Below are positions 16,935-61,920 of a stretch of 64,000 nt of DNA, one piece after another. Each line of letters begins with the position of its first letter. Position 1 is the first letter of the stretch. The notes under the pieces are model-generated. The model was not told the origin of the DNA. It saw only the letters and a list, made by a program, of their open reading frames with translations, and searched no databases. The stretch comes from Pictodentalium vernedei (Eukaryota; Mollusca; Scaphopoda; Dentaliida; Dentaliidae), in contig CM062294.1 in assembly GCA_031216915.1 (NCBI GenBank), forward strand, positions 391,893,217-391,957,216, read 5' to 3'. The translations under genes were made by a program, and so were the position numbers.

Positions 16935-18555
16935 AAATGAAAGTGTCAATGACACTGTAGCTCAACTTGTCAAGACATGTACATGTATAGTATGTGACAC
17001 AGCAATGACAAACATCTGGGTAATGACCTGATAACAAAGGTACATATAAAGTATTGTAACGGTCTGTACATAAATACTGGCCGTAGCCTGTAACAAATGT
17101 ATAGGTAAAGTATTGTAAAGGTGGGTGACAGTCAGATGCTAAACTAGAAAAGAAATCTTTGAGTCCCAGAGTGGGTCTGACTGAACCGCAAAATATTTGT
17201 TCTTGTAGCACAGTGATAACAAAGGCACCCCAAAAAACACTCATTCCTGTCCCAAGGTGAAAACAAAGGTACCCAAGAAGTTTCGTGAAGATCAGTTCAT
17301 AAATACGAGCTGTATAGAAGTTGTGACAAAAAACTGATTGGCCCTAATTTCAGTACACTGGCAGCCATCTTGAATTTTGGACCGCACTCAGAAACACTCG
17401 TTCTCGTCCCAAGGTGATATCAAAGGTACCCAAGAAGTTTCGTGACGATCGGTTGATAAATACAACCTCTAGCCCAAGCCGTATTGACATGTGCACTTAC
17501 AGTGTTAAAGTAGCCCTAAACTAGAGGTACTGTGAGCAAACTCACAAAGTGATACCCCCCCGCCTGAAATGTATAAGTTAGATTATCTTCCCCTGGAAAT
17601 GTCAGAACGGAATTATATTGCTTCATGCACATCTTCATATGGAGTTCTTCCATTGTGTAAAGTTTCATGAAAATTCTTCAAACGGTTTAGGAGGAGTTAC
17701 GCTTACAAGGATGGACAGACGGTATAGATTATCTTCCCTTGGAAATGTCAGAACGGAATTATATTGCTTCATGCACATCTGCATATAAAGTTCTTCCACT
17801 GTGTAAAGTTTCATGAAAATTCTTCAAACGGTTTAGGAGGAGTTGTGCTTACAAGGATGGACAGATGGTATAAGTTAGATTATCTCCCCTTGGAAATGTC
17901 TGAACGGAATTATATTGCTTCATGCACATCTTCATATGGAGTTCTTCCATTGTGTAAAGTTTCATGAAAATTCTTCAAACGGTTTAGGAGGAGTTGCGCT
18001 TACAAGGATGGACAGACGGTATAAGTTAGATTATCTCCCCTTGGAAATGTCAGAACAGAATTATATTGCTTCATGCACATCTTCATATGGCGTTCTTCCA
18101 TTGTGTAAAGTTTCATGAAAATTCTTCAAACGGTTTAGGAGTTGCGCTTACAAGGATGGACAGACGGACAGACGGACGGACGGACAGGGTGATCCCTATA
18201 TACCCCCCAAACTTTGTTTGCAGGGGGGGGGGAGGGGGGTATAATAAATCAAAATTCATCTAATTTGCATAATTTCTGCACGAGAAAAAACCCCGTACTA
18301 TATGTGATGTATTCTATGTTACTAAACATTCATACAAAAATTTATTCAAATCAGAACTTTCATACAGAAGTTCTGTACAAAAGACTGATTGCACTAATTT
18401 GGGTACAAAATGGCTGCTGGTGGCCATCTTGAATTTCGGACCACACCCAAAAACACTCGTTCTCATCTCACGGTGATAACAAAGGTACCCAAAAAGTTTC
18501 GTAAAGATCGGTTCATAAATACGGCCTCTAGCCTGAGCCGTATAGAAGTTGTGTA
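16935..18555 (+). mobile_element. Tandem-repeat element, family B, copy 1 (3' end missing)
   Basis: 5' end TGAAAGTGTCAATGACACTG with the hairpin AGTGTCA-A-TGACACT, then GTAGCTCAACTTG. The body has about 150-bp units with CCATCTTGAATTT, AACACTCGTTCTC and GGTACCCAAGAAGTTTCGT. It is interrupted at 17518 by family H and cut at 18555 by family I, so its 3' hairpin is not seen. Confidence 0.78.
17518..18246 (+). mobile_element. Tandem-repeat element, family H, inside family B
   Basis: 5' end CTAGAGGTACTGTGAG, hairpin GTGAG-CAAA-CTCAC, then GATACCCCCC. Four units of about 150 bp follow (TTATATTGCTTCATGCACATC, TTCTTCAAACGGTTTAGGAG split over each unit), then (GGAC)-rich repeats at 18155-18188. The 3' end has ATACCCCCC...GGGGGGTAT. 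The empty site is readable at about 34430 in another B copy (AGTAGCACTGAATAAATC). Confidence 0.8.
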
Positions 18556-21500
18556 CAATGAAAGTGTCAATGACACTGTAGCTTAACTTGTGTGTTGTGT
18601 TTGATGAAAAGGATAATGTTCAATGTTTATGAAAGGATTATGAAATAAGACAAGAATTGTGATAATTGGGAATATGTTCATCTCTGTTATCTGTATGCTA
18701 TGTTTATGATAAAAATAATGAGGTGTACACTGTACTAAAGAGCTGAGGGGTGGGTTAATATGACCTCACAGTTAATGTATGTGGCCCTCACAGTTAACGT
18801 ATATCAACAAAAGTTACCAAGTTACAGTGAAATTATTTCAAAACGAGTCATCCTATCAAGTTACATTAAAATCCCTTCATAAATATGGCCTGTAGACTGT
18901 GCTAAAGGTTTTCGGGCTTCGGGCCCCTGTAGTCGTCAGTTTCCCAATTGCGTCCAAAGGGGACGTTCTCATCCAGACATTATATGAAGTCAACCTACCA
19001 AGTTACAATGAAATCCCTTAATAAATATGACCTGTAGACTGTGCTAAAGGTTTTTGGGCTTTGGGCTCTGGCAGCCATCATGGTTGAATGATCGCAACCA
19101 AAAGGGGACATTCTCATCTGGGCATCATCTGGAGTGATCCTACAAAGTTACAATGAAATCCCTTCATAAATATGACCTGCAGACTGTGCTCAAGGTTTTT
19201 GGGCTTCAGGCCCCTGAAGCCGTCACAGTCGACCAATCATGACCAAAAGGGGATGTCATCATCTAGGCATTATATGGAGTCAAACTTACGGGTTACAACA
19301 AAGTCCTTCCATAAATATGACCAATAGACTATGCTAAAGGTTTTGGGGTTTTGGGTTCGGGCAGCCATCGAATGATCGTGACCAAAAGGGGACGTTCTCA
19401 TCTAGACATTATTTAGAGTCATCCTACCAAGGTACAATGAAATCCCTTCATAAATATCACCTGTAGACTGTGCTAAAGATTTTTGGGCTTTGGGCCCCTA
19501 TAGCCAACACAGTTGCCTAATGGTGTCCAAAAGGGGCTGTTCTCATCTAGACATTACATGAAGTCTACCTACCAAGTTACAATGAAATCCCTTCATAAAT
19601 ATGATCTGAAGACTGTGCTAAAGGTTTTCGGGCTTTAGGCTTGGGCAGCCATCATGGTTGAATGATCGAAACCAAAAGGGGGCATTCTCATCTGGACATC
19701 ATCTGGAGTGATCCTATGAAGTTACAATGGAATTCCTTTATCAATATGACCTGTAGACTGTGCTCAAGATTTTTGGGTTTCAGGCACCTGTAGCCATCAC
19801 AGTTGACCAACCATGACCAAAAGGGGATGACAACCTACAGACATGCTAAACGTTTTTGGGCTCGGGCAGCCATCAAGGCTGAATGCTCGTGACCAAAAGG
19901 GGACGTTCTCATCTGGACACTATTTGGAGTCATCCTACCAAGCTACAAGGAAATCCCTTCATAATTATGACCTGTAGACTGTTCTAAAGGTTTTCGGGCT
20001 TTGGGCCCCTGAAGCCGTCACAGTTGCCCAATCGTGTCCAAAAGGGAACGTTCTCATCTAGACATTATATGAAGTCAATCTACCAAGTTATAATGAAATC
20101 CCTTCATAAATATGACCTATAGACTGTGCTAAAGGTTTTTGGGCTTCGGGCTCGGGCAGCCATCAGGGTTGAATGATCGCAACCAAAGGGGACAATCTCA
20201 TCTGGGCATCATCTGGAGTGATCATGCAAAGTTACAATGAAATCCCTTCATACATATGACCTGTAGACTGTGCTCAAGGTTTTTGGGCTTCGGGCACCTG
20301 TAGCCATCAGAGTTGACCAATCACGATCAAAAGGGGATGTCATCATCTAGGCATTATATGGAGTCAACCTAACAGGTTACTATGAAATCCTTCTGTAAAT
20401 ATAACCTTTTGCCTATGCTAAAGGTTTTTGGGCTCGGGCACCCAACAAGGCTGAATGATCACGGCCAAAATGGGACGTTCTCATCTAGATATTATTTGGA
20501 GTCATCCTACCAAGTCACAATGAAATCCCTTCATAAATATGACCTGTAGACAGTGCTAAAGGTTTTTGGGCTTCGGGCCCCTGTAGCTGTCACAGTTGTC
20601 CAATCATGTCTAAAAGGGGACGTTCTCATCTAGACATTATATGAAGTCAACCTACCAAGTTACAATGAAATCCCTTCATAAATATGACCTGTAGACTGTG
20701 CTTAAGGTTTTCGGGCTTCGGGCTCGGGCAGCCATCATGGCTGAATGATCACAACCATAGGGGACAATCTCATCTGGGTATCATCTGGAGTGATCCTAAG
20801 AAGTTACAATGAAATCCCTTCATAAATACGACCTGTAGACTGGGCTAAAGGTTTTCGGGCTTCGGGCTTGGGCAGCCATCATGGGTGAATGATCGCAACC
20901 ATAGGGGACAATCTCATCTGGGCATCATCTGGAGTGATCCTAAGAAGTTACAATGAAATCCCTTCATAAATATGACCTGTAGACTGTGCTCAAGGTTTTC
21001 GGGCTTCGGGCACTTGAGCCATCACAACTGACCAATCACGACCAAAAGGAGATGTCATCATCTAGGCATTATATGGAGTCAACCTAACATTTTACAATGA
21101 AATCCTTCCATAAATATGACCTTTTGCCTATTCTAAAGGTTTTTGGGCTCGGGCACCCATCAAGGCTGAATGATCGCGATCAAAATGGGACGTTCTCATC
21201 TAGACATTATTTGGAGTCATCCTACCAAGTTACAATGAAATACCTTCATAAATATGACCTGTAGACTGTGCTAAAGGTTTTCGGGCCCCTGTAGCCGTCA
21301 CAGTTGCCCAATCACGTCCAAAAGGGGACTTTTTCATCTAGCCATTGTATGACCTGTAGACTGTGCTGAAGGTTTTCGGGTTTTGGGCTCGGGCAGTCGT
21401 CACGGTTGGCAGATCATGCCCAAATGGGGAAATTCTCATCTAGACATCATAAGGAGTCATCCTACCAAGTTACAATGAAATCCCTCCACATTAAACATGA

Positions 21501-21690
21501 CCTGCAGACTGTGCTAAAAGGTTTTGGGTTTCAGGCTTGGGCAGCCATCATGGTTGATAGATCATGCCCAAAAGGGGACGTTCTCATCTAGGCATTATAC
21601 ATAGGCATCCTACCAAGTTACAATGAAATCCCTTCATAAATACGACCTGTAGACTGTGCTAATGGTTTTTGGGATTTGGGCTCGGGCAGC
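18556..21690 (+). mobile_element. Tandem-repeat element, family I, copy 1, with higher-order array
   Basis: 5' end as in family B, but with GTAGCTTAACTTG. A 270-bp leader is followed from 18827 by about 20 units of 140-145 bp (TAGACTGTGCTAAAGG, CCAAAAGGGGA). The units fall into four types in a recurring order. The 3' end is absent; the array runs into family J. Inserted in family B. Confidence 0.8.
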
Positions 21691-22330
21691 CATATCTGTT
21701 CTCAAAGATGGACAGACAGACAGATGGATGGATGGGCGGACAGATGGATGGAGCTCTAAGCTCTATCCTTCCCGTGTGTGTGTGTGGGGGGGGGGGGGGG
21801 GGGGGGGGGGGAGATAAAACAAAGGCCAATAACTCCAATAATTTTTATCAGATATTGGTGGTCATCGAACTTGATGTTGACATTGTTGCTACAGAGACAT
21901 TTGCCAAAAAGAATTAAAATTTGTCAACTACTGTTGAAGTTATACCATAAACAAGCATTACACTATATTTTTTATTAAACAAAGGGCAATTACTCCAATA
22001 CTTTTCATCAGATGTCATGGTGATTGTTGCTAGAGAAACATATACCAAAAAGAATTGAAATCCGTTAACTATTGTTCAAGTTATGCCATAAACAAGATTT
22101 ACAGATTATTTTTATAACAAAGGGCAATAACTCCCATAATTTTCAAGAGATATTGGTGGTCATCGAACTTAATGTAGACATTGTTGCTATAGATATAACA
22201 AAAAGAACTGAAATCCTTTAACTATTGTTCAAGTTATGCCAGAAACAAAGTTCGGATGGATGGACAGATGGATGGATGGACAGACAGACAGTTCTACGTT
22301 ATATCCCTAACTGGCGGGGGGATAAAAATA
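21691..22330 (+). mobile_element. Tandem-repeat element, family J
   Basis: A GGAC/GGAT tract (21707-21750) and a 26-base G tract (21786-21811) are followed by three units of about 150 bp (CAAAGGGCAATAACTCC, TTGTTCAAGTTATGCC), a second GGAT/GGAC tract (22256-22290) and an end GGCGGGGGGATAAAAA. Two 3'-like ends bracket one array. No 5' end identified. Confidence 0.6.
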
Positions 22331-22359
22331 CAAGCAAAGGACACATAACTCTGAAGGTA

Positions 22360-23374: not shown

Positions 23375-24050
23375 CTGTTTCTTAGGCCCTCCCACATGAT
23401 CCTTTTGGCTGCAACATGCTCTCATTTTAAAAAAAATGCAAAATTAAATGGTTTAGGCCACACAAAGTAGATCTTCTGTTTCTCGGGCCATTATTTGTGA
23501 AATTGCATGCGGGCGAGCGGTTTTTTATTTTATTTTTTATTTCAGTAATTACTTCTTTGCCATCAAAAGTTCATGTTCTTGGTTCAAGTTTTAGGCCTCA
23601 TAAGCTACAGAATAGCATGGGTGGTGGAGTATTTCATCCCTTGAGTGCAAGAAGGCTTTGCAATGCTAAAGCATTGCAAAGCCTTCTTGCACTCAAGGGA
23701 CAAATTCATCAATTTTTTTAACTTGGGTAAAATATCAGACATAACCCATTTAATTTTAATTTTTTTAAAGTTTAAATTGGTTATAAAAAGAGAGCATGCG
23801 GCAGCCAAAAGGACCACACTGGAGGGCCTGAGAAACAGATTTTTTTATTTTTTTAGGCCTCATGTCTGATATTTTACCCAAGTTGATAACATTGATAAAT
23901 TTGTCCATTGAGTGAAAAAAGGCTTTGGAATGCAAAACACTACCATCCATGCTATTCTGTAGATTATGAGGCCTAAAACATTAAACAAACCAAGAACATG
24001 AGATTTTTGTGGCAAAGAAATAATTACAAAAATAAAAAATAAAACAAAAG
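23375..24050. mobile_element. Cluster of foldback elements with central hairpin
   Basis: A plus-oriented copy (about 23440-23840) with ends CTGTTTCTCGGGCC and GGGCCTGAGAAACAG and the hairpin at 23637-23700 is followed by a partial copy in the opposite direction (to 24050) and preceded by a short inverted fragment (23375-23460). Shared phrases are GCATGCGGGCGAGCG, CTACAGAATAGCATGG and GAGAGCATGCGGCAGCC. Other copies are at 44162-44545 and 63497-63885. No protein. Confidence 0.75.
23637..23700. repeat. Perfect 30-bp-arm hairpin
   Basis: Left arm from TCCCTTGAGTGC to TTGCAATGC, loop TAAA, right arm the exact complement. It is the centre of the foldback element. Confidence 0.95.
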
Positions 24051-26441
24051 GCCCCAAGGAGCCTTAATCACTCACCAGCCAAAGTGGTGGTTCATCAACA
24101 CTACAAAGGAATGAAGTCATGAGACAAACTTTATGGAACTAGGGCCATGGCTTGAACAAACTTGAATCTTACCCCCCTAAGGATGTTGCGTACCAAATAT
24201 CAAAAGCATTCATCAGCTGGATCTTAAGAAGAAGACTTTAAAAGAAAATTCCTCATTTTGAACAAAGTTATCATTCAGGCTCCCACAGTGAGCCCAAATA
24301 TGAACCCAGGGACTTGGCTTGAACAGACTTGAATCTCACCCCCTAAGGATGCTGCATGCCAAATATCAAAACATTCTGACAGCTGAATCTGAAGATGTTT
24401 AAAGAAAAATTCCTCAAATTGACTAAGTTATAATTCGGGCTTCCACAGGGAGCCCAAATATGGACCCAGGGACTTGGCTTTAAGTTGAATCTCAACCCCC
24501 CTAAGGATGCTACACACCACATATCAAAATATTCAGACTGCTGGATCTGAAGAAGATGATTTTTTAAGAAAATTCCTCATTTCGAACTAAGTTAAATTTC
24601 AAGCTCCCCCCCCCCCCCCCCCCCCCCCTGCCCAAAGAGGCTGCATACCAAATATCAAAACATTCTGACTCCTGGATCTGAAGAAGAAGATTTTTAAAGA
24701 AAATTCCTCATTTTGAACTAAGTTATAATTCCGGCTACCACAGTGAGCCCAAATATGAACCCAAGGAACTTGGCTTGAACAAACTTGAATCTCACTCCTC
24801 TAAGCATGCTGCATACCCAATATCAAAAGATTCTGCCTGCTGGATCTTGAGAAGAAGATTTTTAAAGAAATCTGCCTGAAAGGCACTAAGTTCAAATTGG
24901 GCTCCTATACTGAGCCCAAATATGAACCCAGGGGGCCGATTTGAACAAACTTGAATCAGATCCACCCCACAATGTTACATACCAAATATCAAAAGATTCT
25001 GCTTGCTAGATCTGCAGAAGAAGATTTTTTAAGACATTTGCCTGAAATGCTCTAAGTTCGAATTCGGGCTTCTATACTGAGCCCAAATGTGAATTCAGGG
25101 GGCCGATTTGAACAAACTTGAATCAGATCCACCCCACAATGTTGCATACCAAATATCAAAAGATTCAGCCTGCTGGATCTGGAGAAGAAGATTTTTTAAG
25201 AAATTTGCCTGAAATGCACGAAGTTTGAATTCAAGCTTTTATAGTAAGCCCAAATATAAATCCAGGGGGCTGATTTGAACAAACTTGAATCAGATCTACC
25301 CCACAATGTTGCATACCAAATATCAAAAGATTCTGCCTGCTGGATCTTGAGAAGAAGATTTTTTTAAAAATTTGCCTGAAATGCACTAAGTTCAAATTCG
25401 GGCTTCTATACTGAACCCAAATATAAATCCAGGGGCTGATTTGAACAAACTTGAATTAGATCCACCCCACAATGTTGCATACCAAATATCAAAAGATTCT
25501 GCCTGCTGGATCTGGAGAAGAGTTTTTAAGAAATTTGCCTGAAATGCACTAAGTTCGAATTTGGGCTTCTATACTGAGCCCAAATATGAATCCAGGGGGC
25601 CAATTTGAACAAACTTGAATCAGATCCACCCCACAATGTTGCATACCAAATACTAAAAGATTCTGCCTGCTGGATATGGAGAAGAAGATTTTTTAAGAAA
25701 TTTGCCTGAAATGCACTAAGTTCTAATTCGGTCTTATATACTGAGCCCAAATGTGAATCCAGGGGACCGATTTGAACAAACTTGAATCAGATCCACCCCA
25801 CAATGTTACATACCAAATATCAAAAGATTCTGCTTGCTGGATCTGCAGAAGAAGATTTTTTAAGACATTTGCCTGAAATGCACTAAGTTCGAATTCGGGC
25901 TTCTATACTGAGCCCAAATGAGAATTCAGGGGGCCGATTTGAACAAACTTGAATCAGATCCACCCCACAATGTTGCATACCGAATATCAAAAGATTCTGC
26001 CTGCTGGATCTGGAGAAGAAGATTTTTTAAGAAATTTGCCTGAAATGCACTAAGTTCGAATTCAGGCTTCTATAGTGAGCCCAAATATGAATCCAGGGAG
26101 CCGATTTGAACAAACTTGAATCAGACCCATACCAAGATGCTGCATACCAAGTATCAAAAGATTCTGCTCACTGCTTCTGGTGAAGAAGATTTTTTAATAA
26201 TTTTTCTATAATTCATATGGTGCTATCAAGAGTTATGCCCCATACAAAGCCCCCAAGGGACTTTTCCATTTCAAGTGAACAAACTTGAATTGACATACGG
26301 TAATGAACATCCATACCACAGTTTCGAGCAAATCGACCTAGCGGTTTCAGAGCAGAAGTCGTTTGAAAAATGTTTACGACGCCGGACGACGACGCCGGAT
26401 GGCAAGTGATAAGTTTAGCTCCCCTCGGTGAGCTAATAAAA
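24051..26441 (+). mobile_element. Tandem-repeat element, family C, copy 1
   Basis: 5' end AAAAGGCCCCAAGGAGCCTT (hairpin) followed by CACTCACC. About 13-14 units of 160-170 bp follow (GAGCCCAAATATGAA, TTTGAACAAACTTGAATC, CATACCAAATATCAAAAGAT, GAAGAAGATTTTT). A 23-base C tract lies at 24606-24628. A CGACGCCGGACGACGACG stretch near the end is followed by CCCCTCGGTGAGCTAATAA. Non-coding. Confidence 0.8.
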
Positions 26442-26471
26442 AAAACGCCCACACACCACATGCAATTTTAC

Positions 26472-27713
26472 AAATGAAAGTGTCCATGACACTGTAGCTT
26501 AACTTGACTATGTGTTGAGTTTAAAGAAAAGGATAATGTTCAATGTTTATGAAAGGATTATGAAATACGGCGAGAATTGTGATAATTGAGAATATGTTTA
26601 TTTCTGTTCCCTGTATGCTATGATTTCAATAAAAATAATTTGAGGTGTAGACTGTACTAAAGAATTGAGGGGTGGGTTAATGTGGCCCTCACAGTTAATG
26701 TATGTCAGCCAAAGTTACCAAGTTACAGTGAAATTATTCCAAAATGACTCAACCTACCAAGTTACAATGAAATTCCTTGCAAAGGTTTTGGGGCTTCGGG
26801 CCTGTGTATCCATCATGGTTGACCCATCACAACCAAAAGGGGGCGTCCTCATCTAGACATTATACCGAGTCATCCTACAAAGTTACAATAAAATCCCTTC
26901 ATAAATACAGCCTGTAGTGTGTGCTAAAGGTTTTCGGGTTTTGGGCTCAGGCAGCCATCACAGCTGAACAATCACAACCAAAAGGGGACATTCTTATCTA
27001 GACATTATCTGGAGTGTGATCCTACCAAGTTACAATGAAATCCCTTCATAAATATGACCTATAGACTGTGCTAAGGGTTTTCGGGCTTCGGGTCCCTGTA
27101 GCCATCACAGATGACAAATCAACATTATATGGAGCCATCCAACTAAGTTACAATGAAATCTGTCCACAAATAGGACCTGTAGACTGTGCTAAAGGTTTTT
27201 GGGTTTTGGGCCCGGACAGCCATCACGGTTGACATCTGATTGGTACCAAATGGGGAAGTTCTCATCTAGACACCATACAGAGTCATCCTACCAAGTTAAA
27301 ATGAAATCCCTCCATATTAAATACAACCTGCAGACTGTGCTAAAAGTTTTGGGGTTTCGGGCTTGGGCAGCCGTCACAGTTGACAGATCATGACCAAAAG
27401 GGGATGTTCTCATCTAGACATTATACAGTGTCATCCTACTAAGATACAATGAAATTCCTTCATAAATACGACCTGTAGACTGTGCTAAAGGTTTTTTTGG
27501 TTTTGGGCTCGGGCAGCCATCACGGTTGACCGATCGTGACCAATAGGGGACATTCTCATCCAGACATAACTTCAAACCTGCATATGAAATTTCGTGACAA
27601 TCAGACTAGAACTACAGGGTGTAGCCTCTGCGAAATGAAAATGTGAACAGACTCACAGACTTCTGCATACGTGATGGCAATAGCTTACCTTGATGTCAAG
27701 TTAAGCTAAAAAT
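26472..27713 (+). mobile_element. Tandem-repeat element, family I, copy 2 (complete)
   Basis: 5' end TGAAAGTGTCcATGACACTG then GTAGCTTAACTTGAC. The leader matches 18556-18826. About six units follow, then GTGATGGCAATAGCTTACC and the hairpin CTTGATGTCAAG leading to GTCAAGTTAAGCTAAAAA. The 3' arm is the complement of the 5' arm, including the T/A that differs from family B. Confidence 0.82.
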
Positions 27714-29100: not shown

Positions 29101-29151
<51 letters not shown>

Positions 29152-29152: not shown

Positions 29153-29995
29153 TCCTCATCAAAGAGAAGATTGTCAAATTTTCTGCAGAAGATTATGTTA
29201 TATTGACGGGCACATGCTCACTGCTGCCCACGCAGAAAACAACCTCCAGTGCACTTGACTTTTGGCAGTTTGTTACAAACATTTATCCATGACTTGACAG
29301 CTCAAGTGACTGAAATAACTGTTCATTCAGAATTCCAACACCTTAACCCTTTCATGTTACATCGAGTAAACATCATTGTAAATCAACAAATGTTTGATAG
29401 CTTTGACAATGACTGCGTCAGCAAAGGAATTCTAACGTCTCGCGGTCAAATACTATTTATTTTCCTGAAGCTATCCCGTAAACTATAGGTACAGCGGTTA
29501 TCTGGTTGGTGGCTTTTCCAACTGGTTATGCCAATAACCTGTTGCAGGCTGGTTATCCAGCTGACCGTTTCAGCACTAACTCATAATGTTAGATCCGTTA
29601 TCAGTTGGTATTCACATTAGTCTATTGGGATCTAACTTTCATGTTAGCAGAGTTTCAAATAAAATGTGTGCTATATTCTCCCCGGTATGACTTTCTGGAA
29701 AGTTTAATGTCTCTAACACTAGTGACTGCAAGTACCATTCACTGATAATAAAGCTCTCACTCACACCAATATATGGAACCATGCCCACAGATGACCAAAT
29801 ACCTGTGCAGGAAAATTGCTGACAGAACTAACTTTTCAGGCAACATTCTTATGCACTCCCTTGAAAAGCTTACATCTGTAATCTTTTTAAACATTCTGGC
29901 AAAGGAAAGTAAAAAAATGTAGAATATGTATGGGTGTATGTATGGATGGACATATGTACACTTAATTCCCACTTTGCAAAAAATAGGCTGATGAA
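29153..29995. other. Intron sequence, nothing recognised
   Basis: No repeat ends, hairpins or coding signal that I could support. Confidence 0.45.
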
Positions 29996-31066
29996 ATCGT
30001 CAGATGTGTACCCATACGTGCAACTAGTAGAAACTGTATGACAGAGGGCCACCACGGATGCCGACATTATGTACACCATACATGGTATGGGTACACACAG
30101 AAATGGATTGGATGAGTGTCCAATTTGACGGATAAAGGGTTAATATCTCCAGATCAAATTATCATATTTACATAAAAAACTATACAGCACAGCACATCAG
30201 TAACTTGAATACATATAAAAAGTAACATGACAATCGGATTGATATTTTTTTGTTATCTCATGCCAAAGGGATTGAAGAAATTTTCAATTTGAAGGATAAA
30301 GGGTTAATATCTCCGTATAAAATTATCAGATTTACACCAAAAACTATACAGCTTGGTACATCAGTAACCTGAACACAAATATAAAGTAACTTGACAATCC
30401 AAGCAATATTTTTCAAGTTATCGAATGCCTAAGGGATTGGAGGAATTTTCAGTTTGAAGGATAAAGAGTTAATATCTCAGGATTAAATAATCAGATTTAC
30501 ACCAAAAACTATACAGCTCGGCACATCAGTAACCTAAACAAATCTAAAGTAACTTGACAATCCAAGTAATATTTTTCAAGTTGTCGAATGCCAAAGGGAT
30601 TGGAGGAATTTTCAATTTGAAGGATAAAGGGTTTATATCTCGGGATCAAATCATCAGATTTACATCAAAAACTATACAGCTCGGCAAAGCAGTGACCTGA
30701 ACACAAATATAATATAAAGTAACTAGACAATCCAAGCAATATTTTTCAAGTTATCGAATGCCAAAGGGATAGGAGGAATTTTCAATTTGAAGGATAAAGG
30801 GTTAAAATCTCAGGACCAAATTATCAGATTTACACCAAAAACTATATAGCTTGCCACATCAGTAACCTGAATACAAATATAAAGTAACTTGACAATCCAC
30901 GCAATATTTTTCAAGTTATCGAATGCCAAAGAAATGGATATGGATGCCGGACAGATGGACAGACAGACAGCCAGATGGACGGATGGACAAAGGATGGACA
31001 AATGACGGATGGCCACCCCGGATGCCGGCATTATGTGTACCATACATAGTATGGGTACACATAAAA
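29996..31066 (+). mobile_element. Tandem-repeat element, family F, copy 1
   Basis: 5' arm GTGTACCCATAC. A module near 30040-30095 (GGATGCCGACATTATGTACA, CCATACATGGTATGGGTACA) copies the element's own 3' end. About five units of 160-165 bp follow (AATTTGAAGGATAAAGGGTT, AACTATACAGCTCGGCACAT), then a GGACAGAC tract (30945-31000) and the 3' hairpin GTGTACCATAC-ATA-GTATGGGTACAC followed by ATAAAAA. The second copy is at 50507-51708. Confidence 0.82.
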
Positions 31067-33180: not shown

Positions 33181-33836
33181 CTAAAATGAAAAAAACGAAT
33201 GTCAATCAATATTTAAAACAAGAGGGGTGCCATGGCCGAGAGCATACCACCAAACAATGACAAGAGGAGAAATAAACCATGATACAGAGAAAGCCTTCCC
33301 CATAAACAATCATTTCAAATTTCATGGAGATTCGATAACCAAAACTAGAGATACCACCCAATTCAGAGATACAAGGCAAACAGACAAATGAAAGTGTCAA
33401 TGACACTGTAGCTCAACTTGACAAACTTGAAATGGTAAATTTGAAGATCATTGGTTCCAATGTCATTTGGTGAAACTTCAACATAACTGCACCAGCTGTG
33501 CTAATGTCAGAGAAATCCATGCATTTTAAATGTGAACTGTAAGGCTGGCTAAAGGAAGAATGCGGATACACAAATCAGTAAATTCGGAGTAAACGGCAAC
33601 TTTTTTCACAAGAATGAATCTACATGTAGAGGTTTCGCCTACTAAGCACGCAGAGTCCACAAACAATCCTATGATAAATGTGCCCTGTAGGCCATGTCAA
33701 AAAAGAATGTAAATGCACAAATGCAATAGATTCAAAGATTGTTGCTGACAGCCACAGTTTTTGATAGAAATGAAAAGATCGATAGCTCCTATCTCTGTCA
33801 CCCCGAATAAGCATATGAAGTTTCAAAACAACCCAA

Positions 33837-36002
33837 AAATGAAAGTGTCAATGACACTGTAGCTCAACTTGTCAAGACAAAGACATGTACATGTATAGTA
33901 TGCGACACAGCAATGACAAACATCTAGGTAATGACCTGATAACAAAGGTACATATAAAGTATTGTAACGGTCTGTACCTAAATACAGACCATTGCCTGTA
34001 ACAAATGTATAGGTAAAGTATTGTAAAGGTGGGGGACAGTCAGATGCTAAACTAGAAAAAAATCTTGGAGTCCCAGAGTGGGTCTGACTGAACCCCAAAA
34101 TATTTGTTCTCATAGCACAGTGATAACAAAGGCACCCCAAAACACACTCGTTCCTGTCCCAAGGTGAAAACAAAGGTACCCAAGAAGTTTTGTGAAGATC
34201 AGTTCATAAATACGAGCTGTATAGAACTTGTGACAAAAAACAGATTGGACCAAATTTTGGTACAAAATGGCCACTGGCAGCCATCTTGAATTTTGGACCG
34301 TACCCAGAAATACTCATTCTCGTCCCAAGGTGATAACAAAGGTACCCAAGAAGTTTTGTGAAGATCGGTTCATAAATACAGCCTCTACCCTGAGCCGTAT
34401 TGACATGTGTGCTTACATTGTGTAAGTAGCACTGAATAAATCAAAGTTCATCTAATTTGCATAATTTCTACACGAAAAAAAAAACCCTTACAATATGTGA
34501 TGTATTCCATGTTACTAAACATTCATACAAAAATTTATTCAAATCAGAAATTTCATACAGAAGTTCTGTACAAAAGACTGATTGCACTAATTTTGGTACA
34601 AAATGGCTGATGGTGGCCATCTTGAATTTCGGACCACACCCCCAAAACACTCGCTCTCATCCCACGGTGAGAACAAAGGTACCCAAGAAGTTTCGTAAAG
34701 ACTGGTTCATAAATATGGTCTCTAGTCTGAGCATATAGAAGTTGTGTACAAAAAACTGATTAGACCTAATTTCGGTACAAAATGGCCACTGGTGGCCATC
34801 TTGAATTTTAGACCGCACCCAGAAACACTCGTTCTCATCCCAAGGTGATAATAAAGGTGCCCAACACATTTCATGAAGATCAGTTCAAAAATAGACTCTA
34901 GTCTGAGCCGTATTGACATGTGTACTTATTGTGTGTAAGTCGCACTGAAAAAAAATCAAAGTTCATCTAATTTGCATAATTTCTGCACGAGAAAAAACCC
35001 CGTATTATATGTGATGTATCCCATGGTACTAAACATTCACACAAAAAATTATTCAAATGAGCGCTTTCATATGGAAGTTCTGTGCAAAAATCTGACTGCA
35101 CCTAATTATGTACAAAATGGCTGCCATCGGCCATTTTGAATTTTGGAATGGACCCAAAAACACTTGTTCTCGTCCCACGGTGATACTAAAGGTACCCAAG
35201 AAGTTTCGTAAAGATCGGTTCATAAATACGGCCTCTAGCCCGAGCTGTATTGGCATTTGCACTTACAGTGCTGAAAGTAACACCAAAAAACATAAAAATT
35301 AGTCTAATTTGCACAATTTACGCACGAGAAAAAAAACAGTATTATATGTGATGTATCCCATGGTACTAAACATTCATACAAAAAATTATTCAAATGAGCG
35401 CTTTCATATGGAAGTTCTGTGCAAAAATCTGACTGCACCTAATTATGTACAAAATGGCTGCCATCGGCCATTTTGAATTTTGGAATGGACCCAAAAACAC
35501 TTGTTCTCGTCCCACGGTGATACTAAAGGTACCCAAGAAGTTTCGTAAAGATCGGTTCATAAATACGGCCTCTAGCCCGAGCTGTATTGGCATTTGCACT
35601 TACAGTGCTGAAAGTAACACCAAAAAACATAAAAATTAGTCTAATTTGCACAATTTACGCACGAGAAAAAAAACAGTATTATATGTGATGTATCCCATGG
35701 TACTAAACATTCATACAAAAAATTATTCAAATCAGATCTTTCATATGGAAGTTCTGTACAAAAAACATATTTCTGCATCGTCGGTCCAAAATGGCGGCTG
35801 GCAACCATCTTGAATTTCGGACCGCACCCAAAAACACTCGTTCTCATCCCATGGTCATAACAAAGGTGCCCAAGAAGTTTTGTAAAGATCGGTTCATAAA
35901 TACAGCCTCTAGCCTGAGCCGTATCCAATCGTTGACGTACGGACAGACGGACGACTGGCCATGACAAAAGCTCAAATTTGGCTTCGCCAAAGTTGAGCTA
36001 AT
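33837..36002 (+). mobile_element. Tandem-repeat element, family B, copy 2 (complete)
   Basis: 5' TGAAAGTGTCAATGACACTG, GTAGCTCAACTTGTC. Alternating units contain CCATCTTGAATTT and CATCTAATTTGCATAATTT. A GGACAGACGGACGA tract precedes the 3' hairpin CTTTGGCGAAGCCAAA-type and AAAGTTGAGCTAATG. It carries an exact direct duplication (see 35041-35731). Confidence 0.8.
35041..35731. repeat. Exact 337-bp tandem duplication
   Basis: The sequence from 35041 repeats from 35378 with no difference that I can see over about 350 bases. It breaks down only where the third unit changes ATGAGCGCTTTC to ATCAGATCTTTC. Very recent, or an assembly artefact. Confidence 0.85.
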
Positions 36003-37382
36003 GAATACGCACTCTGAGGCATGCCAAAGGAATATGTTAATGCACAAATGCACTAAGTTTGACGGTCCTGGCTGGTGGCAAGGGTCTTTTTATCTTTTTT
36101 ATGGAAATTCATAAATATACCCTGTAGAGAGTGCAAAAGAGAAAAGTTGCTACAAAAATGCACTAAGTCCATTATGTCCAACAATAATTTTTTATGGAAA
36201 TGAAAAGAAATCAACAACTAACACCCAAAAGCCACCCAGAACATGCATACCAAGTTTCAAGCGATCCTATCATAAATGTGCTGTGTATGGCATGCCAGAG
36301 GAATATACTGATGCCTGACTATACGAAGTTCAAAGGTTGTTGCCAATGGCAACTATTTCTGAACGGAAATGGAAGAAAATTGACAATTCCCATCTAGAGG
36401 TCACCCTGAACAAGCATACCAAGTTTCAAAGCAATCTGATCATAAATGTGTCCTGCAGGGTGTGCCAAAGGGAAATATTGATGCATAACAGCACTAAGTT
36501 CATTGAAGGTCATTGTCAGCGGCAACATTTTTTGATGGAAATGGAAGATCGATGGAAGATCGATAGCTCCCATCTAGAGGTAATCCCAAATAAGCATACA
36601 AGGTTTCTAACCCATCTGATCATAAATGTGCCCTGAAGGGTGTGCCAAAGGAATATATTGATACCTAACTAAACTAAGTTCAAAGTTCATTGCTAGCGGC
36701 AACACTTTTTGCAGGAAATGGAAGAAAAATCGATAATTCCCATCTAGATGTCACCCCAAACAAGTATACCAAGTTTCAAAATGATCCAATTATAAATGTG
36801 CCCTGTAGGGTGTGCCAAAGGCAAATATTGAGGTCTGACTAAACTAAGTTCAAAGGCAACTGAACCGGCAATATTTTTTGACGGAAATGGAAGAAAAATG
36901 ATAACTCCCATCTGGAATTCACCCCAAACAAGCATACCAACTTTCAAATTGATCTGATTATAAACATGCCCTGCAGTGTGTGCCAAAGGGAAATATTGTT
37001 TCATAAGTGCACTAAGTTCATCAAAGGGCATTGCCAGTGGCAACACTTTTTGACGAAATGGAAGATAGCTCCCATCTAGAGATAACACCAAACAACCATA
37101 CCAAGTTTCAAACTGATCTGATCATAAATGTGTCCTGTAGCATTTGCCAAAGGAATATAGAGATGCTTGACTAAACTAAGTTCCAAGCTCATTGCCAGCA
37201 GTAACATATTTTGCCGGTATGGAAGAAAATCAATAGCTTCCATCTAGAGATCACCCCAAATAAGCAGACCAGGTTTCAAAGAAATCCTATTATAAATTTA
37301 CCCTGTAGGGTGTGACAAAGGGAAATATTGAGGTCTGACTAAACAAGTTCAAAGGCTGTTGCCTGCGGCAACATTTTTTGAC

Positions 37383-37992: not shown

Positions 37993-38640
37993 GGAAGAAA
38001 ATCGATAGCTCCCATGTAGAGGTCACCCCAAACAAGCATACCAAGTCTCAAATTGATACGATTATAAATGTGCCCTGCAGGGTGTGACAAAAGGAAATAC
38101 TAATGCATAAGTGCACTTAGTTCATCAAAGGTCATTGCCAGCAGCAACATTTATTGATGGAAATGGAAGATAATCGATAGCTCCCATCTAGAGGTAACCT
38201 CAAACAAGCATACCAAGTTTCAAACCGATCTGATCATAAATGTATCTTGTAGGGTGTGCCAAAGGAATATATTGTTGCCTGACTAAAGTTCAAAGGTTGC
38301 CAGCTGCAACATTTTTTGCCGTAAATGGAAAAAAATCGATAGCTCACATCTAGAGGTCACCCCAAATAAACATACATTTGAAAGTCTTTCCCACAAACAA
38401 TCTTCATTCCAAATTTCATTGAAATCTGATAACCCAAACCTGAGATATGAGGCGAACAGACAGGAAATTGGCTATGTTGTATATTCAAAGAGTCATAACT
38501 CAGAGAAACAATATTCCAACAGCAAAATCTAAGCAGTAATGTTCAAGTTATAAAGCGAACAGACATCTGAGTGTGGATGGACAGAAGGATGCATGCATGG
38601 ATAGATGGACAGGGGTAATCTGGTATACCACACTTTTTTA

Positions 38641-41347: not shown

Positions 41348-42155
41348 AATATAAAGATTTTTCTGCACTAGCCCAAATATTAACCGACAAATTTTCTTTG
41401 AAGTCAGGTGAACTAAAAATGAAAGTTTTTCGCCCCCCCCCCCCCCCCCCCCCCCCCTACAGATGTTGTATACCAAACATGAAAGGATTCTGACTGGTGG
41501 ATCTGAAGATTTTAAAAGAAATTTCCTCAAATTGCACCAAGTTAAACTTTTGGCTCCAATAGAAAGCCCAAATCTTAACCCAGGGACTAGCTTTGCACAA
41601 ACTTGAATCTGACCACCCTAGAGATGTTGTATAACAAATATGAAAAGATTGTGAATGGTGGACCTGAAGAAGAAGATTTTTTTGAATTTTTAAAAAAATT
41701 TATGGGTGCTATCAGATTTATGCCCCTTCTGGTGCCCCCTGTGGGCACGTCAAGTTTATTTGTAAAAACTTGAACTGACATATGATAAGGAACATGCACA
41801 GAAAATTTGGTTCAATTTGGTAGAGTAATTTCTGAGAAGTCGATAATGTAAAGTTCACGACGTACGAAGATGACGAGGGACGGCAAATGATAAATTAAGC
41901 TCCCTTCGGTGAGCTAAAAATGGATTGCACTAACTAAGGTACAAAATGGCTGCTAATAGCCATCTTGAATTTTGGACCGCACCCAAAAACACTCGTTCTC
42001 GTCCCACAGTGATAACAAAGGTACTCAAGAAGTTTTGTGAAGATCGGTTCGTAAATACGGCCTCTAGCCCAAGCCGTATTGAATTGTTGATGGACAGATG
42101 GACAGACAGGCCATGGCATAACCTCAAATTTGACTTATGTCAAAGTTGATCTAAA
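41348..42155 (+). mobile_element. Partial family C element followed by a family B 3' end
   Basis: 41348-41919 holds a stray GTCAGGTGAACTAAAAA end, a 25-base C tract (41433-41457), two C units and a C-type end CCCTTCGGTGAGCTAAAAA. 41920-42155 is one B unit with its GGACAGATGGACAGAC tract and AAGTTGATCTAAAAA. The two probably form a C-in-B nest whose left part is lost. Confidence 0.6.
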
Positions 42156-42669
42156 AATAAAAATTTTGGATGATTTTAAGAAAAACTTCAACTATTAATT
42201 TCACTTGTTTTGGGTAGAAGTACAAATGCATTAAACCATGTCAGTTAACATCTTATAACAGATTAAGAGAGAAATTTGGCAGCAGAGGCTTGAAAACAGG
42301 ATCTCTAGATCAAAAAGTGACCGTCTGGCCATCAGGATGATGAGAGGCCTTTATACCTTAAACACTACACACATTTCAATTCTTTTTGTGATTTATCAAC
42401 TGTGAATTTCACATGACCTTCCTCCTAATATCAGTCAAAATACTCACAATGCCACCAACTGATGAGGATTGGAAATGTAAGAGATCAAAACAAGTGCTCC
42501 CCCCCCCCCCCCCCCCCCCCCCCCCCCACTGCCAAACATAAGTTTCCAATCATTTAACTTTGTTGATATTGAATTAATAAATGTCTTATCTTATCTCCAT
42601 TAAACCATAGCACCAATACAGCAGGCCACCAAATGTGCCCATGGAACACTGATGCCACTTGATGCTAAA
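42156..42669. other. Intron sequence with a 29-base C tract
   Basis: C tract at 42499-42527. Nothing else recognised. Confidence 0.5.
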
Positions 42670-47294: not shown

Positions 47295-47628
47295 CCTCTA
47301 TATATCTTTTGTTTTCTGTGACATATAACCAGAAATATCTGAAATGGATTTTTTGTGCGACACAGGGAAAGTAATGAAACTTCTAACTAGTACAGTACAA
47401 GAGGCCATAATGAGGATTTACTTAATAGTACCAGTGCCACAATTAAAAGGTTTCATATTTTGTGGATGTGCTTCATACAGGGGAGCCCACTTAATTGGAT
47501 ATCTCTTGACTGAATAACCCTGTTAATTGAATATAATTTCCCAACAAAAAAAACATTTACCATACCACCAGAACATATTTGACCTGTTGAGTATAGGTAT
47601 AGAGTAAAATCCTGTTAACTGAATAAAC

Positions 47629-49537
47629 AAGAGGCCCCATGGGGTCTGAAGCTCTCATCTTGAACAGAACACAATATAAACAGAGTCCAAGAATGAGTCT
47701 ACATTAAGCAATCCATCTCCATAGGCTACACTGCCAATCCTTGAGTCCCTCAGGAGTGACAAAAATAATCCGGGAATCATGCCTTTTCTTCAGTTGATCA
47801 TAGTGTAAAATGAAGAGCTCCCCTATGAAGCCCCTTGATACAACCTATGTGGATTAATCTTAGTTACACCTCTAGAGGGTACTGAATACAAAATTTTTAA
47901 TTTTTCAGCAAAATGGCTAATTCCGGCTTCCATTGGAAGCCCAAATATTAACCCAGTGACTCAATTTGAACACAGTTGAATCTGACTTCCCTAGAGATGT
48001 TGTGTACCAAAAATGAAAGCATTCTGACTGTTGGATCTGAAGAGAAATTTAAAAAAAATTTCTTCATATTGCACTAAGTTAAAATTTTGGGCTACCATAG
48101 CGAGCCTAAATATTAACCGATTTGAATAAACTTTAATCTGACCCCCTAGAGATGCTTATACCAAATATGAAAGCGTTCTGAATAGTGGATCTGAAGAAGA
48201 AGATTTTTGAAGAAATTCCCTCATATTGTACTAAGTTAAATTTCAGGTTTCCACATGGAGCCCAAATATTAACCCAGGCACTTGAATTGAACAACTGGAA
48301 TCTGACCCCCTTAGAGGTGTTGTATACCAAATATGAAAGCATTCCGACTGGTGGATCTGAAGAAGATTTTCAAAGAAATTTCCTCATATCGCACTAAGTA
48401 CAAATTTGGGCTACCATAGCGAGTCTAAAAATAAACCTAGGGATCTGATTTGAACAAACTTGAATCTGATCCCCCTAGAGATATTGCATACCAAATATGA
48501 AAGCAATCTGACTGGTGGATCTGAAGAAGATTTTTTAAAATTATTCCCCATATTGAACAAAGTTAAAATTTGGGCTTCTGTAGGAAGCCCAAATATTAAC
48601 CTAGGGACTTGGTTTGAACAATCTTGAATCTGACCCTCATAACAATGATATACACCAAACATTAAAAGATTCTGACTCGTGGTTCTGAAGAAGATTTTTA
48701 AAGAATATTCCCCATATTAACCTATGTACAAAATTTGGGCTCTTGTATTGATCTCAAATATGAACGAATGGGCTTTATTTTAACAAACTTGTATCTGACC
48801 CCCCTATGAATGCTGTTTACCGAATATCCAAAGATTATGAGGAGTGATTCTGGAGAAAAGATTTTTTAAAATTTTTGCAAATATGCTGACTCAGCATTTT
48901 TTCGATGTCCGTTACAGAACACCCTAACATAACCGATGGCAAATTTTTTTTACCACTCAATTCTACTGGTCCTAAGGATACTTCATACCAAATAACAGCT
49001 CTCTGTTCTGTGAAGTTTGGGAAATATGGGTGTTTGAAAATATTTCTATTTTTAGCTCCCAGGGTCCCCATAGGGATGCGGGAATTTTTTTTTTGCTTGG
49101 GTCAAATACTTATGACACAATAATATTACATACCAAATTTGGTTCAAACCAGACCATCGCTCAGAAAATAGAAATTTGGGGCGGAGCCAAAAATCTTTCC
49201 CCCTCCCATTACAAAGCCAAATATTGCTTCAAGAACGTCCTTTGAACAAACTTGATTCTACACCTCAAAAGGAAGCTCCATAGCAAATATCAAGACATTG
49301 TTCATGAGAAGAAGATTTTAAAAATATTTTGGAGCTTTTTCCCCCACTCCCTCCCTATGGGCCTGGGCCTGTTGAGTTGAACAAAAATGCAATGCCCCTT
49401 TGGAACCATCACTCACACAAACTTTCACTTGAATTGGCCCAGTGTGTTTGGAGAAGACCAAAACATAGTGTTGATGGTCGCTGGATGGAGAGCGATGAGA
49501 TTAGCTCAGCATGACTTTGTCAAGATGAGCTAAAAAT
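47629..49537 (+). mobile_element. Tandem-repeat element, family C, copy 2 (with B-like terminal arms)
   Basis: 5' AACAAGAGGCCCCATGGGGTC (hairpin GGCCCC-AT-GGGGTC), then AGCTCTCATCTTGA. About seven C units follow, then a unique 3' part (48895-49480) shared with 61280-61600, GTCGCTGGATGGAGAGCGATG, and the 3' hairpin CATGACTTTGTCAAGATG with GATGAGCTAAAAA. The arms CATCTTGA / TCAAGATG pair. Confidence 0.78.
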
Positions 49538-49867: not shown

Positions 49868-52243
49868 AAACAAGAGGCCCCAGGGGTCTTAAGGCGCTCA
49901 CCGAATGTTCCATACTGTTAAGACACAAATTTTTTCAAAAGCTATTCTTAAGGTTCTACAGAGTAAATCTATACTCTCTGTGGAGATAAAACATCAACAG
50001 GACTGAATGGGACAATGCTGCTGATCAAATATCAAAAGATTCTGCATGATGGTTCTGAAGAAGATTTTTAAAGAATTTTCTTTGAATTGCACAAAGTAAA
50101 CATTCATGCCCCAAAGTGAGCCCCAATATTAATCAAAAGACTCAATTTGAACAAACGTGAATCCAACCCATACCAAGATGCTGCATACCAAATATCTAAA
50201 GATTCTGCCCACTGGTTCTGGTGAAGAAGATTGTTAAAGATTTTTTCTTAAATTGCACTAAGTAAAAATTCACACCCCCATAGTGATCCCCAATACTGAA
50301 CGGGGGATTCAATTTGAACAAACTTGAATCAGACTCATACCAAGATGCTGTATACCAAATATCAAAAGATCCTGCCCACTGGTTCTGGAGAAGAAGATTT
50401 TATATTTTTTTTTCTTAAATTGCACTAAGTAAAAATTCAGGTCCCCATAGTGAGCCCCAAAATTGATCAAGGGACTCCATTTGTACCCAAGTTTCAGACC
50501 CAAAAATCATCAGATGTGTACCCATACGAGCAACTAGTAGAAAGCTGTATGATGGAGGGCCACCACGGATGCCGACATTATGTACACCACACAAGGTATG
50601 GGTACATATAGAAATGGATTGGAGGAGTGTCTAATTTGATGGATAAAGGGTTAATATCTCCAGAGCAAATTATCAGATTTACATAAAAAACTATACAGCA
50701 CAGCACATCAGTAACCTGAATAAATATATAAAGTAATATGACAATCGGATTAATATTTTTTGAGTTATCTCATGCCAAAGGGATTGGAGGAATTTTCAAT
50801 TTGAAGGATAAAGGGGGTTAATATCTCCGGATCAAATTATCAGATTTACACCAAAAACTATACAGCTCAGCACATCAGTAACCTGAACACAATTATAAAG
50901 TAACTTGACAATCCAAGCAATATTTTTCAAGTTATTAAATGCCAAAGGGATTGAAGGAATTTTCAATTTGAAGGATAAAGGGTTAATATCTCAGGATCAA
51001 AATAACAGATTTACACCAAAAACTATACAGCTCGGTACATTAGTAACCTGAACAAAAATATAAAGTAACTTGACAATCCAAGCAATATTTTTCAAGTTAT
51101 CTCATGCCAAAGGGATTGGAGGAAATTTCAATTTGAAGGATAAAGGGTTAATATCTCAGGATTAAATTATCAGATTTACACTAAAAACTATACAGCTCGG
51201 CACATCAGTAACCTGAACACAAATATAAAGTAACTTGACAATCCAAGCAATATTTTTCAAGTTATCGAATGCCAAAGGGATTGGAGGAATTTTCAATTTG
51301 AAGGATAAAGGGTTAATATCTCAGGATCAAAATAACAGATTTACACAAAAATCTATACAGCTCGGCACATCAGTAACCTGAACACAAATATAAAGTAACT
51401 TGACAATCCAAGTAATATTTTTCAAGTTATCGAATGCCAAAGGGATTGGAGGAATTTTCAATTTGAAGGATAAAGGGTTAATATCTCAGGGTCAAATCAT
51501 CAGATTTACACCAAAAACTATACAGCTCGGCACATCAGTAACCTGAACACAAATATAAAGTAACTAGATAATCCAAGCAATATTTTTCAAGTTATCGAAT
51601 GCCAAAGAAATGGATACGGACGCCGGATGGACAAAGGATGGACGAACGACGGATGGTCACCCCGGATGCCGGCATTATGTGTACCATACATAGTATGGGT
51701 ACACATAAAAATTCATTCCCCTACAGCAAGCCCCAATATTGATTAGGGGACTCGATTTAAACAAACTTGAATCAGACCCATACCAATATGCTGCATACCA
51801 AATATCAAAAGATTCTGCCCATTGTTTCTGGAGAAGAAGATTTTTAAAGAATTTTTCTTAAATTGCACTAAGTAAAAATTCACGCCCCCATAGTGAGCTC
51901 CAATATTGGTTGAGGGACTCGATTTGAACAAATTTGAATCAGTCCTATACCCAGATGCTGCATACCAAATATCAAAAGATTCTGCCCACTGGTTCTGGAA
52001 AAGAAGATTTTTTAATAATTTTTCGATAATTTATACGGTGCTATCAGAGTTATGCCCCATAAAGAGCCCCCAAGGGACGTGGCCATTTCATTTGAACAAA
52101 CATGAATTGCCATATAGTAATGAACATCCACATGAAGTTTCATGAAAATTGGACCAGTGATTTCAGAGGAGAAGTCGTTTGAAAAATGTTCATGACGACG
52201 GACGGCAAGTGATAAGTTAAGCTCCCTTCGGTGAGCTAAGAAA
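49868..52243 (+). mobile_element. Tandem-repeat element, family C, copy 3
   Basis: 5' AAACAAGAGGCCCCAGGGGTC (hairpin), then GCGCTCACCGAAT. C units follow, interrupted at 50507-51708 by family F, then a CATGACGACGGACGGCAAG stretch and CCCTTCGGTGAGCTAAG. 5' CTCACCGAA pairs with 3' TTCGGTGAG. Confidence 0.8.
50507..51708 (+). mobile_element. Tandem-repeat element, family F, copy 2, inside family C
   Basis: 5' arm GTGTACCCATAC, internal copy of the 3' end near 50560-50615, six units, a GGACAAAGGATGGACGAACG tract, and 3' hairpin GTGTACCATAC-ATA-GTATGGGTACAC then ATAAAA. The C unit resumes directly. Confidence 0.85.
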
Positions 52244-59640: not shown

Positions 59641-61920
59641 TGCACCTGCAATCGGAAAATAAAACCATAGGCTCAAGTGAGCCTAAAATACTCACCTGGC
59701 TCAAATTGTCAAAACAGATGAGTGTATCAGCATGTGATCAGCAGCAAGAGCAATTTTTTTGATTTTCTATGACACAACCAAAAGCAACTTTTTTGGCCAT
59801 TCATTTCTGCTGGTCCTAGGAAAGCTTCCTTGCAAACTCTGTTCTGTGAAGTATTAAAAAACAACAACCGAAAGAAATTTTTGTTTTGTTTTAAACTACT
59901 GTGGTTCTCTCTAATGCCACCCCCCCCCCCCCAAAAAAAAATAAAATTAAAAAAAAACAAAAAAAAACAAAACAAGCAAATTGATTTGAACAAACTTGAA
60001 TTTGACATCCCTAGAGATGTTACATACCAAATATGAAAGGATTATCACTGGTGGATCTGAAGAAGAAGAATTTTCAAGAAATTTTCTCATATTGCTAAAG
60101 TTAAACTTTGGGCTTCAATAAAAAGCCCAAATATTAAGACAGGGACCTGATTTGAACAACCTTCAATCTAACCCTCCCAGAGGTGTTGTACACCAAAAAT
60201 CAAAAGAACCTGACTGCTGGATCTGAAGGAGATGAATTTAAACGATAATTCCCCATATTGCACTAAGTAAATATTTGGGCTTCCTTGGGGAACCCAAATA
60301 TTAACCCAGGAAATCGATTTGAACAAATTTGAACCTTACACCTCTTGAGATGTCACATACTAAATATGAAAGGATTCTCACTAGTGGGTCTGAAAAAGAA
60401 GATTTTTAAAGAAATTTTCTCATATTGCACTACGTTAAAATTTGGGTTCCAATAAAGAGCCCAAATATTCATCCAGGGATCCCATTTGAACAAACTTGAA
60501 TCTAACCCTCCAACCCCCCCCCCCCCCTTCCACCCCCAGAGATGCTGCATACCAAATATCAAAAGAATCTGAGTGGTGGATCTGAAGAAGAAGATTTTTA
60601 AAGATTATTACCCATATTGCACAAAGTTAATATTCAGGTTCCCACTGGAAGCCCAAATATTAACCCAGGGACTCGATTTGAAATTTGAATCTTACACCTT
60701 GAGAGATGTCATATACCAAATATGAAAGGATTCTCAATAGCAGGTCTGAAAAGGAAGATTTTTTAAGAAATTTTCTCATTTTGCACTAAGTTAAAATTTG
60801 GGCTCCAATAAAGAGCCCAAATATTCATCCAGGGATCCCATTTGAACAAACTTGAATCTAACCCCCCTAGAAAAGCTGCATATCAAATATCAAAAGACTC
60901 TGACTGGTGGATCTGAAGAAGATTTTTAAAGATTATTCCCCATATTGCACCAAGTTAATGTTTGGGCTTCCATAGGAAGCCCAAATATTAACCCAGGGAC
61001 TCAATTTGAACAAACTTCAATCTGACCCCTGTAGAGATGCTGTATACCAAGTATCAAAAGAATCTACTGTATGATCTGAAGAAGAAGATTTTTAAAGCTT
61101 ATTCCCCATAGCACCCTAAGTTATTTGGGCTCCTCTGTTGAGCCCAAATATGAACCGAGGGGGTCGATTTGAACACACTTGTATTTGACCATCCTATGGA
61201 TGCTGTATACCAAATACCAAAGGATTTTGATCAGTGGTTCTGAAGAAAATGTTTTTTTCAATTTTTGCAAATAAGCTGACTCAGCATTTTTTCAAACGCC
61301 CCTACAGAACACCCTTACACAACCGATGGTCATTTTTTTTAATCCATTCTACCGGTGAAAATGATGCTTCATACCAAATAACAGTTCTCTGTTCCGTGTA
61401 GTTTGGAAACTATGGGCATTTGAATTTTTTCTATTTTTAGTCCCTAGGGTACCCACGGGGCAACAAAAAAAAAATATTTCGGGCATCAATCAAGGACTTT
61501 GGACCCACTTATGCTACATGCCAAATTTGGTTCAAATCGGCCCATCGGTTCTTGAAATAGAAATTTTGAGCGCAGCCCAAAAAGGATATGTGCCCACAGA
61601 GAGCCCAAATATTGATCTACCAACTTCTCTTGAACAAACTTTAATCTTCAACACCAAAGAGTGTTACATACCATATATCAAGGCAGTCTCTCTGGTGGTT
61701 CATGAGAAGAAGATTTTTAAAGATTTCTAGGCTTTGGCATCATTGCCCAAAGCCCGGAGAAGGCAGCCGCTCCATTTGAACAAAACAGAAAGGGTATACC
61801 CCAGGGATGGTTTGTGCAATATATGTTTGAATTTGGCTGAATGGCTGTGGGTTAACAGATGACGGATGCCAAGTGATGGCAATACCTCACACTGACTTGC
61901 AGTCAGGTGAGTTAAAAAAT
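59641..61920 (+). mobile_element. Tandem-repeat element, family C, copy 4
   Basis: The left edge has AGGCTCAAGTGAGCCT (hairpin) then ACTCACCTGG. About seven C units follow from 59985, then the same unique 3' part as copy 2 (61280-61600). The 3' hairpin is CTGAC-TTGCA-GTCAG with GTCAGGTGAGTTAAAAA. CTCACCTG pairs with CAGGTGAG. It includes an A/C-rich low-complexity stretch at 59920-59975 and a C tract near 60511. Confidence 0.72.

Follow-up and report, generated by a model that had tools for sequence, protein, structure and literature searches.

Nested HINE-like elements with matched, lineage-specific ends in a short stretch of scaphopod DNA

The window, meaning the whole stretch of 64,000 nucleotides analysed here, is repeat-rich and eukaryotic in type, with many small non-coding elements; about 21 elements or fragments built on a common plan lie between about 7 kb and 62 kb. 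They are very probably non-autonomous rolling-circle HINEs of the Helentron superfamily on the minus strand, and are labelled as such below, in window coordinates.

7096..8253, minus strand: HINE A1, subTIR pair ATACCACCCACT (12/12); outside the 16935-61920 interval
16937..18557, minus strand: HINE B1, 3' part only, 3' arm at 16959; interrupted by H
17520..18243, minus strand: HINE H, in B1, subTIR pair ATACCCCCC (9 nt, low complexity)
18558..21815 (end approximate), minus strand: HINE I1, I-type 3' end AGCTTAACTTG at 18580, unrelated 5' end ATCTCCCCCC
24043..26437 (approximate), minus strand: HINE C1, arms unmatched (5' AGCTCACCGAGG vs 3' ACTCACCAGCC), hybrid array
26473..27711, minus strand: HINE I2, subTIR pair TAGCTTAACTTGAC (14 nt)
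29983..31066, minus strand: HINE F1, subTIR pair ATGTGTACCCATAC (14 nt)
33218..38645 (approximate), minus strand: HINE-like K, outermost of a nest, arms sharing ATACCA only
33386..38370, minus strand: HINE L1, in K, 3' arm at 33410, 5' end not found
33838..36004, minus strand: HINE B2, in L1, arms matching over TAGCTCAACTT (11 nt), then diverging
37383..37990, minus strand: HINE L2, in a tandem unit of L1, subTIR pair TAGCTCAACTTGA (13 nt)
39326..39921, minus strand: HINE A2, subTIR pair ATACCACCCACT (12/12)
40171..41348, minus strand: HINE B3, arms matching over TAGCTCAACTT (11 nt), then one indel
41432..42158, minus strand: C5 and B4, 5' ends only, C5 AGCTCACCGAA (5' end about 41917) and B4 AGATCAACTTTGAC (5' end about 42155)
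47622..49537, minus strand: HINE C2, subTIR pair CTCATCTTGA (10 nt)
49868..52240, minus strand: HINE C3, subTIR pair GCTCACCGAA (10 nt); interrupted by F2
50500..51708, minus strand: HINE F2, in C3, subTIR pair ATGTGTACCCATAC (14 nt), 3' palindrome degraded
59660..61918, minus strand: HINE C4, subTIR pair ACTCACCTG (9 nt)

All of the elements and fragments (7096-8253 and 16937-61918) lie on the minus strand, and tract and BLAST searches of the window found none on the plus strand. One shared orientation would arise by chance with a probability of about 1e-6 if the elements were independent, which nested insertions into A-rich arrays are not. The remainder of B1 was not found past the I1 insertion. 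The stretch 21786-22331 has more 5' ends of HINE-like form, whose subTIRs are C-rich (TATCCCCCCGCC...GGGATA), and an array of three units that has no recognisable 3' end. At 38650-39300, past an array of 'tcaaggtcac' units, stands a further microsatellite and T-tract 5' end (GACAGCGCCGTTTTTTTTACC) whose 3' end was not found. Coding remnants are also present on the minus strand, at 3033-5757 and, as similar sequence near 52-58 kb, at about 52300-58000; long inverted repeats near 2061-2457 and 6519-6756 flank the first of these. One of them gave a weak tyrosine-recombinase-like match below the cut-off (Phage_integrase, E = 0.16), and these remnants are possibly DIRS- or Crypton-like.

Read on the minus strand, the elements run from a T-tract (for example TTTTTAGCTCAACTTG, TTATTATACCACCC or TTTTTATGTGTACC) through the 5' subTIR, a complementary inverted repeat (IR), a GTCC/GTCY-like microsatellite, a tandem array and the 3' subTIR to a palindrome. 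This order is the same as the published plan of DINE-1, HINE and Cg_HINE, which supports the identification as HINEs, as do the GTCY-type microsatellite and the tandem array that separate the ends, both expected of a HINE. They are not canonical Helitrons (5' TC, 3' CTRR, insertion at A^T, no subTIRs), since their ends are a T-tract with a subTIR and a palindrome, and subTIRs are present. An earlier, sequence-only reading of the plus strand had recognised non-autonomous Helentron-type elements (HINE, pearl-like) with subterminal inverted repeats, and in this it was right. Every arm it quoted occurs in the window, and its layout holds for that strand, with one arm beside a palindrome at the left and the right arm within a hairpin past a GGAC/GGAY-type tract. 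The polarity was inverted: the hairpin it called 5' is the 3' terminal palindrome, and the TAAAAA-like end it took for the 3' terminus corresponds, on the minus strand, to the T-rich 5' end.

The supposed terminal position of the arms is supported by two nested copies, H in B1 and L2 in L1, which put the ends just outside the arms and the palindrome. The best uninterrupted B copies read across the H site with 1-2 bases between the matching flanks, and most uninterrupted L1 units read across the L2 site with 2-4 bases between flanks. Both insertion points are A-rich (T-rich on the element strand) and lack a target duplication, which would fit the HINE habit of inserting at TT in T-rich DNA, though a few host bases are unaccounted for. 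No clean empty site was found for B2 or F2. In the nest, K holds L1, and L1 holds B2 and also L2, which sits within a tandem unit of its own family.

Arm matching was scored in fixed segments beside the T-tract and beside the palindrome, with own partners set against permuted ones; the segments were placed by inspection round elements already recognised, so that pairing was tested and not discovery. Exact matches of 9-14 nt join the arms in 12 of the 15 elements with both ends, and reach at least 11 nt in eight of these (I2, F1 and F2, 14; L2, 13; A1 and A2, 12; B2 and B3, 11; C2 and C3, 10; C4 and H, 9). Matching subTIRs, sought as repeats of about 11-15 bp at both ends, are thus present except in C1, K and I1. 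The own-partner score sum was 156.5 vs 86.9 +/- 10.1 for permuted partners across the 15 elements; with each class represented once it was 119.5 vs 68.5 +/- 8.2, and p was 5e-6 in both comparisons, which is the floor of a test with 200,000 permutations. The own partner scored highest, ties allowed, in 11 of 15 elements; K counts here only by a tie without meaning, and for L2 and C2 the 3' arm of B2 gives a slightly higher score than their own. A free architecture scan with 8-nt arms was rejected as unspecific (7-22 matches per shuffled-sequence replicate), and the evidence for matching comes from the curated elements. Arm pairs are specific to lineage, as the sequence-only reading had said. 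Its claim that the arms co-vary stands in so far as own pairs beat reshuffled ones, but family B and copy C1 break perfect covariation.

In family B, the 5' arm AGCTCAACTTTGGC and the 3' arm AGCTCAACTTG match only over TAGCTCAACTT (11 nt). The inner bases pair with the local IR instead (TTTGGC/GCCAAA; in B4, TTTGAC/GTCAAA), and the arm had been misquoted, since near 36001 and 41344 it ends in CAAAGTTGAGCT, not CAAGTTGAGCT. C1, the clearest unmatched element and one absent from the earlier list, has arms with only CTCACC (6 nt) in common. With C3 it shares 90% identity in the terminal array unit but 73-80% in the remaining units, which reach 74-82% against C2 and C4, and its 5' module belongs to the C3/C5 type; judged by these features, C1 is probably a recombinant. 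A C3-like origin for the whole right half of its array was considered and rejected, the likeness to C3 being confined to the final unit and the 5' module. In I1, an I-type 3' end is joined to an unrelated C-run 5' end. That unrelated end, and the failure of the host B1 to resume afterwards, point to a rearrangement at the junction. Since the 5' end probably does not belong to I1, the element is not counted against arm matching. The arms of K share 6 nt, and its 5' arm is palindromic with an ill-defined boundary. The H pair is of low complexity.

The ends and the arrays recombine, as related ends accompany unrelated arrays. BLAST detects homology among the 5' modules of I, L, B, C2 and C4: that of C2 is 87% identical to L2 over 47 nt, though their arrays are unrelated, and that of C4 is 78% identical to L2 over 59 nt. 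The 5' modules of C1, C3 and C5 form one group with a weak link to C2, and those of A and H form another. The 3' modules fall into the classes I/L/B, C1-C4, A/H and F. The arrays are unrelated, with at most short stretches in common among B, L, I and C. Thus B, L and I carry common ends on unrelated arrays, and C2, C3 and C4 carry different matched ends on related arrays.

The end structures were examined by DNA folding of 18 5' ends and of the 3' ends. The IR complementary to the 5' subTIR forms a hairpin in 16 of the 18, weak in C1, C3, C5 and X, and with no convincing hairpin in K and I1. In 14 of the 16 folded cases a 1x1 mismatch or one-base bulge at the centre separates the outer stem from an inner stem capped by a short loop. 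This interruption is found singly in A1, A2, I2, L2, B2, B3, B4, F1, F2, C1, C3, C5 and C4 and as two mismatches in C2, while the long-range arm match is usually exact. A mismatch in every 5' hairpin was ruled out, the H and X hairpins being uninterrupted. Copies are related within families, and the 14 cases represent at least three independent end types. The position of the interruption differs between B (C8) and L (A7), which have the same subTIR core, and the interrupting base differs between A1 and A2 and between I2 and L2, never becoming complementary. Palindromes at the 3' end are clear in A2, H, I, L, B1, B2, C1 and C4, and these are mostly uninterrupted; they are weak or degraded in A1, B3, C2, C3 and F1, and none folded in F2 or K. 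Yang and Barbash termed the Drosophila IR 'partial and/or interrupted' (PMC2374699), and an interrupted 5' hairpin is only partly new as a feature. The interruption could be either selected or incidental. It is doubtful, but conceivable, that it is selected as a switch, imperfect local pairing and exact distant pairing giving in turn a structure for the start and one for joining the ends. Its recurrence in at least three end types and its shifts of position and base would favour this.

For this class, the established proposal is that an autonomous Helentron recognises the two subTIRs in trans and that rolling-circle transfer follows. Here too, an autonomous Helentron Rep/helicase/endonuclease probably recognises both subTIRs in trans. 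The T-rich 5' end would serve as the start and the 3' palindrome as the stop of rolling-circle transfer. Each lineage would inherit its own subTIR pair, with the tandem array between the ends as replaceable cargo, and selection may act on the match between the arms.

It had been argued that compensating changes mean that the pairing of the ends is selected. Differences between unrelated families do not establish this; they are uninformative on compensation because each family simply inherits its own repeat pair. The informative evidence lies within homologous end modules (I vs L, A vs H, C1-C4), and is small and suggestive. I and L differ at one base, and do so in all three copies (5' arm, IR and 3' arm). 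Permutation within sets has low power and gave p = 0.041 for the four copies C1-C4 and p = 0.17 for C2-C4, and the I/L/B (p = 0.33) and A/H (p = 0.5) sets are too small to test. The silence of the between-family differences and these tiny sets (even C1-C4, at p = 0.04) would suit an absence of ongoing selection, with matched arms reflecting the identity of a founder copy and decaying after insertion. We consider this improbable. In C2, C3 and C4 the 3' modules are related and the 5' modules are of one general type, yet each copy carries a different matched pair, which requires some co-change of both ends in the history of the lineages, and a like pattern occurs across Drosophila species (PMC2374699).

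Selection could also act on pairing itself, if the 5' and 3' subTIRs pair in single-stranded DNA in alternation with the local hairpin. Such pairing is compatible with HINE identity and differs only in the role given to the arms. Predicted long-range duplexes reach -11.5 to -16.3 kcal/mol in well-matched elements, and exceed the local hairpin in 13 of 13 elements tested, before the energy cost of closing a loop of 0.5-5 kb. The interrupted hairpins beside mostly identical long-range arms, and the I/L difference repeated in every copy, point the same way, but the same identity is expected from protein recognition of two like sites, and the inner bases of family B keep their local complementarity and lose the long-range match. 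We regard selected strand pairing as rather unlikely. That these are ordinary MITEs, or cut-and-paste transposons that carry terminal inverted repeats and duplicate their target sites, is very improbable indeed. They do have inverted repeats at each end and no coding capacity, and pearl and DINE-1 were originally called MITEs (PMC7492417, PMC2374699), but the 3' repeat is subterminal with the palindrome outside it, the ends are asymmetric, and two clean nested sites lack a target duplication.

Matched lineage-specific ends are a known anatomy of the element class and not new, although the elements themselves are new members. Such subTIRs around unrelated central repeats appear in a 2008 table of 12 Drosophila species (PMC2374699) and in the 2020 description of oyster HINEs (PMC7492417). 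Cg_HINE of Crassostrea gigas (PMC7492417), compared here by description and not by sequence, has the 5' subTIR, complementary IR, GTCY/GTCC microsatellite, satDNA-like array, 3' subTIR and palindrome, with subTIRs of 11-12 bp, related ends on unrelated arrays, and changes in subTIR, IR and stem that are specific to the element; unlike it, the present elements nest as several lineages within 45 kb. DINE-1 of Drosophila (PMC2374699) is likewise similar in its 13-bp subTIRs, species-specific yet matched within an element, its partial or interrupted IR, GTCY microsatellite, non-homologous central repeats, TT insertion, and 3' stem-loop with compensatory changes, but comes from an insect and has a core sequence of its own. 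The likeness of its ATACC-type subTIRs to those of families A and H may be chance. HINE-Mo and the Helentrons of mite, Culex and Drosophila (PMC4067079) share subTIRs near both ends, a 3' palindrome, a T-rich target and optional tandem repeats; their autonomous partners have been identified, in contrast to the present window, where none was found among 20 frames tested. To propose several matched end-recognition classes was fair, but Helentron families are already defined in print by at least 11 bp of identical subTIR (PMC4067079). Less documented are the central interruption of the hairpin and the single orientation of about 21 elements.

An autonomous Rep-helicase element with the same termini, which the sequence-only reading had proposed to look for, did not turn up within the window, where stop-free frames reach at most 502 aa and none of the 20 frames tested matched Rep, helicase or endonuclease. 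No related elements were found in the searched viral and genome contig collections (viral_contigs, genome_contigs), where the few matches were GC-rich or coding-like and lacked arrays. The arm sequences matched literature text only in papers on unrelated subjects.

Within a short piece of mollusc DNA, several subTIR lineages are nested and exchange modules by recombination. A link from HINEs to autonomous Helentrons was not achievable in oyster for Vojvoda Zeljko et al. (PMC7492417), and subTIR lineages such as these may aid that matching. The recurrent mismatch in the 5' hairpin is a simple clue, open to testing, to the way in which Helentron ends are read.
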